NCBI RefSeq assembly: GCF_035917975.1
Contig: NZ_CP109130.1
Coordinates: 1,178,001 to 1,242,000, forward strand
DNA: 64,000 nucleotides
Reading direction: 5' to 3'
Origin: Streptosporangium sp. NBC_01756
Lineage (GTDB): Bacteria > Actinomycetota > Actinomycetes > Streptosporangiales > Streptosporangiaceae
Of this stretch, positions 18,678 to 21,454 are shown one piece after another (position 1 is the stretch's first letter; the number at the start of each line of letters is the position of its first letter). The notes under the pieces are model-generated. The model made no database searches. It had not been told where the DNA came from and saw only the letters and a program-made list of their open reading frames with translations. A program made the position numbers and the translations under genes.

Positions 18678-19214
18678 TCAGACCGAGGACATGACCGCCT
18701 CGGACTCCAGGGTGGCCGCCACGGCGTTGACCGTCGCGGCGATCCGGAGAGCCTCCTGGACCTGCTCACGGGATACGCCCGACTGCCGCAGCACCTGCTC
18801 GTGGGACTCAAGGCAGCGGCCGCAGCCGTTGATCGCGGACACCGCGAGGCACCAGAGCTCGAAGTCGGCCTTGTCGACGCCCGGGTTGCCGATGAGCGTC
18901 ATGCGGAGCTTGGCCGGCATGGTGGAGTACGTCTCGTCGCCGATCAGGTGGACCGACCGGTAGTAGACGTTGTTCATCGCCATGATCGCCGCCGCGCCCT
19001 TGGCGGCCGTGAACGCCTCGTCCGAGAGGTTGCCGGCGGCCTCGGCGGCGACTTCGGCGATCACTCGCGGAGACCTGGTCGCCACCGCGCAGGCGAGCAG
19101 CGTCCCCCAGAGCTGCTGCTCGCCCAGCGAGGAGGTGGTGACCAGTGATCCCAGATTGAGCTTGATGTCCTTCGCGAAGCCGGGCAGGGCGCCCTTGAGG
19201 TTGTCGATCGACAT
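18678..19214 (-). CDS. ahpD: Alkyl hydroperoxidase AhpD
   Basis: This 178-residue protein has the active-site motif [13 protein letters not shown], with Cys131 and Cys134 as the redox pair and His138 as the proton relay; Glu119 is also conserved. AhpD reduces oxidised AhpC via lipoamide partners in actinobacteria. Its ATG overlaps the ahpC stop by one base (TGATG), so the two are translationally coupled. Confidence 0.95.
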
Positions 19215-19768
19215 CAGGCGCCGGCCATCAGCTTCTGCGCGTCGAGGCCCGTCTCACCCTTGTTCCAGTTGCACGGGCAGAGCTCGTCCGACTGGAGCGC
19301 GTCGAGGACCCGGAGGACCTCCTTGACGTTGCGGCCGACGGAGCCCGCGGTCACCATGACGAACTGGATCTCGTTGTTCGGGTCCACGATGAAGGTGGCG
19401 CGCTGGGCGACCCCGTCGACGCCGAGGATGCCCAGCTCGGTGCAGAGCTCGCGCTTGATGTCCGACATCATCGGGAAGGGCAGGTCCCGCAGATCCGGGT
19501 GGTCCTTGCGCCAGGCGTGGTGGACGTACTCCGAGTCGACGGAGAAACCCAGGACCTGAGCGTCGCGGTCGGCGAACTCGCCCTCCAGGCGGCCGAACTC
19601 GGCGATCTCGGTCGGGCAGACGAAGGTGAAGTCCTTCGGCCAGGCGAAGTAGATCTTCCACTTGCCCTCGTAGGACTTGTGGTTGATCTCGGCGAACGCG
19701 TTGTCCGCGTCCAAAGAGACGCAGGCGGTCAGCTCGAACTCAGGAAAGTGGTCACCGACGGTGAGCAA
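19214..19768 (-). CDS. ahpC: Alkyl hydroperoxide reductase C (peroxiredoxin)
   Basis: This 184-residue 2-Cys peroxiredoxin has its peroxidatic cysteine in [12 protein letters not shown] (Cys51) and resolving cysteines in DELCPCNW (Cys164/Cys166). It detoxifies peroxides and peroxynitrite in the cytoplasm. The TTG start at 19768 has AAAGGAGAT 8 nt upstream. The pair ahpC-ahpD is divergent from oxyR, so peroxide-induced control by OxyR is expected. Confidence 0.95.
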
Positions 19769-19874
19769 GTCCGGATCTCCTTTGCGGAAGGACGTCGTTG
19801 TCGGGGCCTACCTTGCCGCATCTAGCATTGATCCGAGAAATCGAGCAGTCGGACCAATCTGAGAGGCGTTCCCT
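19769..19874. promoter_or_regulatory. Divergent ahpC/oxyR control region
   Basis: The 106-bp gap must carry both promoters and the OxyR binding site. It holds AT-richer blocks (CTAGCATTGATCCGAG and CAGTCGGACCAATCTG) in the middle, where LysR-type T-N11-A contacts would lie. No single strong palindrome is visible, so I do not place the operator exactly. Confidence 0.5.
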
Positions 19875-20810
19875 ATCAGTACCCCCACCCCCACCCTGGC
19901 TCAGCTGCGCGCCTTCCTCGCCGTCGCCGATCACCTGCATTTCAGGGAGGCCGCCGCCTCGCTCCGGATGAGCCAGCCGGCCCTGTCGAGCGCGGTGTCG
20001 GCCCTGGAGGAGATTTTGCACACACAGTTACTGGAACGGACCACCAGGAAGGTCCTGCTGACCCCGGCGGGCGACCGGGTGGCGGTGCACGCCGCACGGG
20101 TGCTCAACGCGGTCGAGGACCTGATGGGCGAGGTGACCCAGAGCCGGGAGCCCTTCTCCGGACCGGCGCACCTGGGAGTGATCCCGACTGTGGCCCCCTA
20201 CGTGCTTCCCGCGCTGCTGCCGATGCTCTCCCGGAAGTTCCCCCGGCTCAAGCTGACCGTTCACGAGGCCAAGACCGAGACCATCCTGGAGGAGGTGCGC
20301 GAGGGTCGCCTCGACATGGTGCTGCTGGCCCTGCCGACGGACGCGACCGGCCTGGTCGAGGAACCCCTCTACGACGAGGACTTCCTGCTCGCCGTCCCCT
20401 CGGACCACCCGCTGGCCGGCGCGGACGGGCCGCTGGACCGGGACGTGCTCAAGGGACTGGACATCGTGCTGCTCAACCAGGGCCACTGCCTGCGCGAGCA
20501 GGCCATCGACGTCTGCCGCGAGGTCGGCGCCCGTGCCACCGCCGCCACCTACGCCACCAGCCTCCCCACCCTGGTCCAGCTCGTCGCGGGCGGCCTCGGC
20601 GTGACCCTGCTCCCGGAGTCGGCCGTCCCGGTGGAGACGGGCAAGCGTGTACGGCTGGCGCTGCGCCACTTCCGGTCTCCGGCCCCCGGCCGCACCATCG
20701 GCCTCGCCTACCGGGCGAGCTCCGCCCGCGCTCCGGAGTATGCCGAGCTGGCCGACGCCGTCCGCGGCGCGATCCGCGCCAAGCGCCTCCCGGTCCGGAT
20801 CATCTCCTGA
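19875..20810 (+). CDS. oxyR: OxyR, LysR-type peroxide sensor
   Basis: This LysR-family activator has the winged helix TLAQLRAFLAVADHLHFREA followed by MSQPALSSAVSALEEIL, and an effector domain. The peroxide-sensing pair is conserved as GHCLREQAIDVC (about Cys205 and Cys214), nine residues apart as in E. coli OxyR. The in-frame stop upstream is at 19860-19862, and no ATG, GTG or TTG lies between it and the conserved domain. The only well-placed start is ATC at 19875, 8 nt after GAGAGG and giving I/M-STPTPTLAQ. The first canonical ATG, at 19968, would delete the front of the DNA-binding domain. A sequence error or strain variant is the alternative. Confidence 0.9.
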   Translation: MSTPTPTLAQLRAFLAVADHLHFREAAASLRMSQPALSSAVSALEEILHTQLLERTTRKVLLTPAGDRVAVHAARVLNAVEDLMGEVTQSREPFSGPAHLGVIPTVAPYVLPALLPMLSRKFPRLKLTVHEAKTETILEEVREGRLDMVLLALPTDATGLVEEPLYDEDFLLAVPSDHPLAGADGPLDRDVLKGLDIVLLNQGHCLREQAIDVCREVGARATAATYATSLPTLVQLVAGGLGVTLLPESAVPVETGKRVRLALRHFRSPAPGRTIGLAYRASSARAPEYAELADAVRGAIRAKRLPVRIIS

Positions 20811-20820
20811 ACAGCGTGGT

Positions 20821-21192
20821 TCAGGCCCACGATCCGAGTGCGGCCGCGATCAGCTTGAGATCATTGATGTCTCCGGCTGCCACGCTGACAACCAGGTCGT
20901 AAATCTCATCGTCACCGGCGTCGACCTCGACATCGTTGAATCGGAGAAATGTGTCCGTGGCCAGCCATGCCAGCCGCTTGTTCCCGTCGACGAGGGGATG
21001 ATTGATGGCCAGAGACTGCAGAAGTGCGGCAGCTTTGGTGAACAGGTCGGTATAGGCGTCCTGCCCGAACATGGAAGCGCTTGGCCGATGCACAGCGGAG
21101 TCCAGCAGTCCCAGGTCGCGGATCGCAAGGGCGTCTCCGATGACGAGTTCTGCGAGATCGAGAACCTGCTCCAGCGTCAGGTATCTGGTCAT
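20821..21192 (-). CDS. Doc-type toxin (Fic/Doc fold)
   Basis: The 123-residue protein has the Fic/Doc active-site loop HPLVDGNKRLAW (His65 to Arg73). Its short length and N-terminal YLTLEQVLDLAELVIG match death-on-curing toxins. Doc phosphorylates elongation factor Tu and arrests translation. This protein has Gly where P1 Doc has Ala in the loop, a variation seen between Doc and AMP-transferring Fic enzymes, so the exact reaction is uncertain. The start overlaps the antitoxin stop (ATGA). Confidence 0.88.
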   Translation of the reverse strand: MTRYLTLEQVLDLAELVIGDALAIRDLGLLDSAVHRPSASMFGQDAYTDLFTKAAALLQSLAINHPLVDGNKRLAWLATDTFLRFNDVEVDAGDDEIYDLVVSVAAGDINDLKLIAAALGSWA

Positions 21193-21386
21193 TGCCCCAA
21201 CCGATCAAGGACCGTCCGCCAGCGCTCGACGGACTTCACACCCAGACGGTGGACCTCCTCATCGTCGCTGCGCCGGGCGAGATACTCCTCCAACGCCGAG
21301 AGTACGATCTGCTGCATGCTGCGCCCTTCCTCATCGGCGCGCTTACGCAGAGCCTCGGTCTGTTCGTCGCTCAAGCGAAGAGTCAT
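21189..21386 (-). CDS. Ribbon-helix-helix type antitoxin
   Basis: This small protein of about 65 residues begins MTLRLSDEQTEALRKRADEEG with a single beta strand then two helices (RSMQQIVLSALEEYLARR), the CopG/RHH pattern of DNA-binding antitoxins. The C-terminal tail (VHRLGVKSVERWRTVLDRLGQ) would wrap the toxin. ATG at 21386 is chosen because GGGGGG lies at normal spacing; ATGs at 21392 and 21401 are also in frame. It is the first gene of a two-gene operon, probably self-repressed. Confidence 0.82.
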   Translation of the reverse strand: MTLRLSDEQTEALRKRADEEGRSMQQIVLSALEEYLARRSDDEEVHRLGVKSVERWRTVLDRLGQ

Positions 21387-21454
21387 AGCCATACCCCCCA
21401 TCGTAGAACGCCATCGGTATCAGAGCGATACCACTACGGGAAGCATAAGACTCG

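Follow-up and report, generated by a model that had tools for sequence, protein, structure and literature searches.

The very likely start of oxyR in Streptosporangium sp. NBC_01756 is an ATC codon conserved in related genomes

Where does translation of oxyR begin when its reading frame offers no ordinary start codon ahead of the DNA-binding domain? The question was raised by an earlier note on a stretch of 64,000 nucleotides from the soil bacterium Streptosporangium sp. NBC_01756 (contig NZ_CP109130.1, positions 1,178,001 to 1,242,000; hereafter the window, taken from a single-contig genome of 9.0 Mb), which proposed that the gene starts at ATC. From position 19860 on the forward strand, the frame reads TGA GAG GCG TTC CCT ATC AGT ACC CCC ACC CCC ACC CTG GCT CAG CTG CGC, with the in-frame stop TGA (19860..19862, +) five codons 5′ of the proposed ATC start (19875..19877, +). 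As the note had it, no ATG, GTG or TTG follows this stop in the oxyR frame until the ATG at 19968, and the Shine-Dalgarno (SD) sequence GAGAGG (19861..19866, +) does lie 8 nt upstream of the ATC, with a predicted anti-SD duplex of −7.8 kcal/mol. Initiation at 19968, 93 bases past the ATC, would indeed truncate the DNA-binding domain, removing 31 residues, 24 of them in HTH_1. Counted from the ATC, oxyR (19875..20810, +) comprises 311 codons and a TGA stop.

The translation carries the Pfam domains HTH_1 (residues 8–66 from the ATC) and LysR_substrate, both above cut-off, and its best NCBIfam match is PRK11151 (OxyR), at 257.9 bits, under the curated equivalog cut-off of 329. The cysteine pair GHCLREQAIDVC is present, with two redox cysteines nine residues apart; the abstract of PMC2225504 names the OxyR cysteines C199 and C208. 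OxyR, a LysR-type peroxide regulator, is therefore the likely identity, resting on the best match, the cysteine pair and the ahpC neighbour rather than on a passed curated rule. The divergent ahpC (19214..19768, −) begins at a TTG (19766–19768), 106 nt from the oxyR ATC, and is followed on its 3′ side by ahpD (18678..19214, −; TIGR00777, 264.8 bits, above cut-off). Known OxyR/ahpC divergent loci likewise combine a LysR-type protein, the cysteine pair and divergent ahpC-ahpD, but the locus described here differs from them in its proposed AUC start and in a box that overlaps the SD and start. The ahpC start is TTG in the window and in six other Streptosporangium genomes, ATG in L092 and GTG in L083 and L102. 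On the other side of oxyR, the 3′ end of a gene for a Fic/DOC family protein (20821–21401, −) lies 10 bases from the oxyR 3′ end; a ribbon-helix-helix partner overlaps it by 4 bases, and the two genes are likely a toxin–antitoxin pair.

Within its own genome the arrangement stands apart. Among 37 further matches (E ≤ 0.001) were 28 other LysR-type genes, to which we applied an HTH probe; seven scored too weakly for placement, and all 21 placeable genes have ATG, GTG or TTG close before the HTH domain. A sequencing error or gene decay in the window genome has a negligible probability in our estimation: the 311-codon frame is intact with 94% identity to that of the nearest genome (G001), which shares GAG GCG TTC CCT ATC, and other assemblies share the codon too. 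With the identical codon in many independent assemblies, it is unlikely that resequencing would reveal an ATG or GTG at 19875.

The alignment of starts in close relatives that had been proposed as a check extends the ATC well beyond this locus. A close oxyR (E ≤ 1e-80) was found in 102 of 341 family genomes, the other 239 being without a match, and the 5′ ends of all 102 were read; within the genus, 11 of 16 genomes match at the same threshold. Genomes are sampled unevenly across genera, so that the counts given here are not independent. Group A comprises 35 genomes from Streptosporangium and close genera (at least 72% identity), and group B comprises 67 from Actinomadura and others (58–63% identity). 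ATC stands at the homologous codon in 33 of 35 group A and 55 of 67 group B genomes, 88 of 102 overall; the remaining 14 carry CCC and CTC (group A) and AAC (three), ATG (three), GTC (two), ATT, AGC, ACG and GGC (group B). The proposal of an ATC start is thus supported for this genome, but describes a trait of a wide clade rather than a peculiarity of one strain. Of the 35 genomes in group A, 30 have a stop codon at the distance seen in the window, and the divergent ahpC falls within all 35 group A 5′ stretches and 17 of 67 in group B, being beyond the stretch or absent in the other 50. In L013 (G004), of the Streptosporangium group, the oxyR 5′ end is rearranged: 378 nt separate it from ahpC instead of the usual ~106, ATC is absent and a candidate ATG lies 60 nt upstream of the site.

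The lack of any canonical codon between the upstream stop and the ATC recurs in 26 of the 102 genomes (3 in group A, 23 in group B, the window included). In these 26, predicted anti-SD pairing before the ATC averages −8.9 kcal/mol, against −2.8 kcal/mol at 520 downstream control positions, and the SD core lies 6–8 nt from the ATC. The absence of an upstream codon, accurate for the window, does not carry over to most of group A: 30 of the 33 group A genomes with ATC have an in-frame GTG 9 nt upstream of it, inside the SD (GAGGTG, or CAGGTG or AAGGTG). This GTG is their sole near upstream candidate, save for one genome that also has a TTG at −42, and its counterpart in the window is GCG (19866..19868, +). 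Were the GTG the true start in relatives, the window genome would have lost it by a change from GTG to GCG, and in one database record (P0001, MFPINEPT...) the protein is annotated from it. However, we take GAGGTG(ATC), completed by that GTG, to be complementary to the anti-SD at the 3′ end of 16S rRNA, which GAGGTGATC itself matches; in most group A relatives the SD reads GAGAGGTG. Pairing favours the ATC over the GTG in 30 of 30 genomes (mean −12.1 versus −2.6 kcal/mol, the latter weak), with the SD core 6–8 nt from the ATC in 29 and the remaining one without any listed core. Moreover, the GTG is absent from the window genome, G001, Rhizohabitans and S. tateyamensis, in all of which ATC is retained, as well as from the group B box genomes described below, and, where the GTG is present, the codons separating it from the ATC lack conservation. 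A start at this GTG is accordingly very improbable.

A start further downstream, at the GTG or GTC of TVAQ or the CTG or TTG of LRAF, would yield a shorter OxyR, and we judge it a highly improbable solution. Annotations beginning MAQLRAF, MSQLRAF or MRAFLAV exist, and the 23 genomes of group B that offer no upstream start include 11 with a GTG at +15 and 8 with a TTG at the LRAF leucine. Yet neither codon is conserved as a start (the leucine is CTG, CTC, CTT, CTA or TTG), the HTH domain would be cut, and in 10 of the 26 genomes lacking upstream starts no canonical codon is found even up to the LRAF leucine. A frameshifted start at the GTG of ATCAGTG was rejected, being out of frame with oxyR and not conserved (AGC AGG, AGT ACC).

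Database annotation reflects the difficulty. Annotated N-termini, compared for 17 of 120 listed homologues, vary between MFPINEPT (from the SD GTG), MRAFLAV (S. album, Rhizohabitans), MAQLRAF, MSQLRAF, MTISRPTV, MAISRPTV and MSRPTV. MAISRPTV in P0094 (= L125) begins at an ATG within the box spacer. MSRPTV corresponds to the ATC start in P0092 (= L122), P0104 (= L130) and P0101 (= L131), which means that automatic gene callers have sometimes picked the oxyR ATC. If the ATC start is true, it explains why OxyR N-termini in databases are inconsistent, either cut within the DNA-binding domain or extended from the SD.

Taken together, 63 of the 102 family genomes probably start oxyR at ATC, on the reading of their 5′ ends: the 26 without an upstream start, the 30 with only the SD-internal GTG, and seven group B genomes whose sole candidate is a TTG or ATG in the spacer of the box, immediately after the SD. 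Five genomes of class 'other' (L111, L114, L119, L155 and L169) may do so too. Another pattern, in which ATG, GTG or TTG lies one or two codons upstream and the box is absent, is shown by 31 genomes of group B and a single one of group A. SD pairing is weak (−5.0 kcal/mol or weaker) in 25 of 30 group B cases with a near upstream ATG or GTG, and oxyR mRNAs in part of the Actinomadura-like group look leaderless. A switch from one mode of initiation to the other, leadered with AUC or leaderless with AUG, is possible in this group, whose ATC and ATG forms offer natural comparisons. By eye, a TANNNT-like motif stands close before the ATG in many such group B genomes, e.g. L106, L126 and L133 (ATG at −6). 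In the window, a candidate −10 element of the same TANNNT form, TAGCAT (19823..19828, +), lies ~50 nt 5′ of the ATC, a distance that would imply a leadered mRNA; we grade it weak because it was spotted by eye and a sigma-70 promoter scan found no promoter.

Could the ATC be conserved for a reason other than initiation? The OxyR site consensus, which we take to be ATAG-N7-CTAT, has a close counterpart here: in 29 of 67 group B genomes (29 of 102 in the family), ATAG-N7-YTAT encloses the SD, and its final AT is the AT of the ATC. Besides these, one strand of the same 88,818 bases has six copies of the motif, and 363,044 bases (both strands) of L009–L047 have none. The window has a degenerate version, the inverted repeat TGAGAG-N7-CTATCA (19860..19878, +), whose left half reads AGAG where the assumed consensus has ATAG. 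Binding of OxyR to the predicted box is inferred from that consensus, and the putative operator may help to conserve the ATC in the 29 box genomes. Taken further, the ATC might be conserved merely as the operator half CTATCA, with translation beginning elsewhere. The exact placement of a motif rare elsewhere agrees with this, as does the retention of ATC in group B, where all 29 box genomes keep the codon as against 26 of the 38 boxless ones, and Streptomyces keeps a similar TATCAGTG although GTG is the start there. Against it, 26 genomes have no canonical codon upstream and no other position bears a conserved start codon; and in group A, where the box has a degenerate left half (TGAGAG) and an operator role would accordingly be weaker, ATC is still kept in 33 of 35. 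Six boxless group B genomes likewise keep ATC, although in five of these a canonical codon occurs farther away. Within the box genomes the third base of the ATC is invariant, unlike the outer left base of the box (G in 26 and C in 3 of the 29), but isoleucine codon bias in GC-rich genomes may explain this, which makes the C weak evidence by itself. Conservation of the ATC purely as an operator half is, on balance, improbable.

Constraint on the codon can also be gauged from where it drifts. Group B genomes with no canonical codon at −6/−3 retain ATC in 28 of 29 cases, and those that have such a codon retain it in 27 of 38 (Fisher p = 0.009, kinship uncorrected). When only boxless genomes are compared, the figures are 6 of 7 versus 20 of 31 (p = 0.40), and five of those six have a canonical codon 21–120 nt upstream. 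As the box is confounded with the absence of a canonical codon, the drift test alone cannot separate constraint on a start codon from constraint on an operator. What chiefly argues for the ATC start is that other starts are absent, that the SD is suitably placed and that group A retains ATC despite the degenerate box. On this comparative evidence, which bears out the proposal through a conserved codon, conserved SD spacing and repeated lack of canonical starts, oxyR very likely starts at ATC.

RNA structure adds little to the argument. A hairpin over the SD and start is predicted for 19858–19880 (−5.8 kcal/mol; 15 of 200 shuffles were as good). Its pair −10/−2 is G-C or G-U in 62 of 62 cases, but all 33 genomes from group A have a mismatch at −12/0, so that we do not rely on the hairpin, possible as it is. 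Neither the 71-nt stretch nor L108 folded better than shuffles, and the L122 fold left out the start region.

The arrangement appears to be old. In a protein tree (90 proteins, quick method, duplicates dropped; L244 left unlabelled as ambiguous and L047 labelled ATC by eye), ATC occurs all through the two main clades of the family, with seven changes in all, at least four of them forced by well-supported branches. In Streptomycetaceae, 237 of 297 genomes match; among the best 30 of these 237, a selected sample, nine have no canonical start between the stop and ATC AGT, four combine ATC with a GTG or ATG lying no more than three codons before it, and the other 17 lack ATC AGT but possess an upstream GTG. 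The Streptomyces loci read mostly have a GTG or ATG in another register. A sample at class level returned 89 matching genomes, of which six were family members already read; 40 more were read. In all 20 genomes read from a distant family (f17) and in both from f34, the site is [TC][GC]ATAG-N7-[CT]TATG, with CTATG in the f17 version of the box. Apart from L187, every one of these genomes has the box ATG in frame (19 of 20 in f17, both in f34). The AUC therefore matches, by position, the ATG of distant relatives.

How might such a codon serve? The AUC of oxyR would be read by initiator fMet-tRNA, with which it pairs poorly; it would be disfavoured by initiation factor IF3, and a good, well-placed SD would make it usable by rescuing some initiation. 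The expected outcome is a low, buffered level of OxyR that rises when IF3 is limiting. Initiation at the AUC itself, its low yield and the control of OxyR by IF3 are inferred, the last two, which the note had already named as consequences, by analogy with infC and Streptomyces sigR. That a weak start is conserved in so many relatives suggests that it has been kept on purpose, limiting the amount of the sensor, and a regulatory meaning is plausible. We hold with considerable confidence that oxyR is AUC-initiated through its SD, in an arrangement old in the family and kept to limit OxyR synthesis, most probably via IF3. Because SD and start lie inside an OxyR-type inverted repeat in many genomes, the same ~18 nt may act as operator, ribosome site and start codon. 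More speculatively, and in our view unlikely as a whole, an OxyR box containing the SD and ending in AUC would set the peroxide regulon across Streptosporangiales and part of Streptomycetales, with OxyR repressing itself, IF3 gating translation, and infC, oxyR and perhaps sigR forming one IF3-controlled oxidative-stress module.

Conserved starts other than ATG, GTG or TTG have been characterised in few bacterial genes (infC, sigR, ccpN and cvfC1 in the papers cited below), and oxyR is a new, widely conserved case of this known rare kind; no report of an ATC or AUC start of oxyR was found in the open-access literature (titles, abstract openings and some passages). infC starts at ATT in E. coli, and at ATC in Streptomyces according to a cited passage of PMC5472188. 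Like oxyR, it shows an SD–ATC pattern in this genome and its relatives: the window genome has AGGAGG CCCC ATC AGC, with an ATG 17 codons upstream, and GGAGG-N4-7-ATCAGC is found in 31 of 31 infC loci, its own included, although in L324 it lies further 5′ of the conserved stretch. The two differ in that infC autoregulates IF3, whereas oxyR is a transcription factor whose start often falls within an OxyR-type box. In S. aureus, ccpN (AUA) and cvfC1 (AUU) have extended SDs and conserved non-canonical starts; the portion of PMC13009471 cited gives yields of ~10% of AUG in poor medium, with ccpN reaching up to 30% in rich medium. They share with oxyR the conserved non-canonical start and the SD, but differ in phylum, codons and regulon. 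In a mycobacterial selection, ATC with an SD gave initiation that was low yet above background, 0.2% versus 9.8% for ATT (PMC4633059, passage cited).

The nearest precedent is Streptomyces sigR. In the passages of PMC5472188 drawn on here, its GTC start is IF3-repressed, as proven by mutants; a canonical start gives excess SigR and a constitutive regulon; GTC use was not seen in other genera by the authors, who mention OxyR there only as a redox sensor and name ribosome profiling as their hoped route to the full set of IF3-repressed genes. Like oxyR, sigR is a conserved actinomycete redox regulator with a rare start and a strong SD, misannotated to a nearby canonical codon; unlike oxyR, it encodes a sigma factor and uses GTC instead of ATC, and its start is proven by mutants where that of oxyR rests on comparison. 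If the AUC start holds, oxyR would be the second major actinomycete redox regulator in the IF3-repressed set, and a widely conserved AUC gene alongside infC. The window genome also has a sigR-like gene (G000:C1, L355; TIGR02947, 357.5 bits), likely its sigR, whose 5′ end reads AAG GGG GTG GGT CCG GTC CCT: an SD-like run contains a GTG, with a GTC 9 nt further on, a layout that resembles both that of oxyR and the GTC start of Streptomyces sigR.
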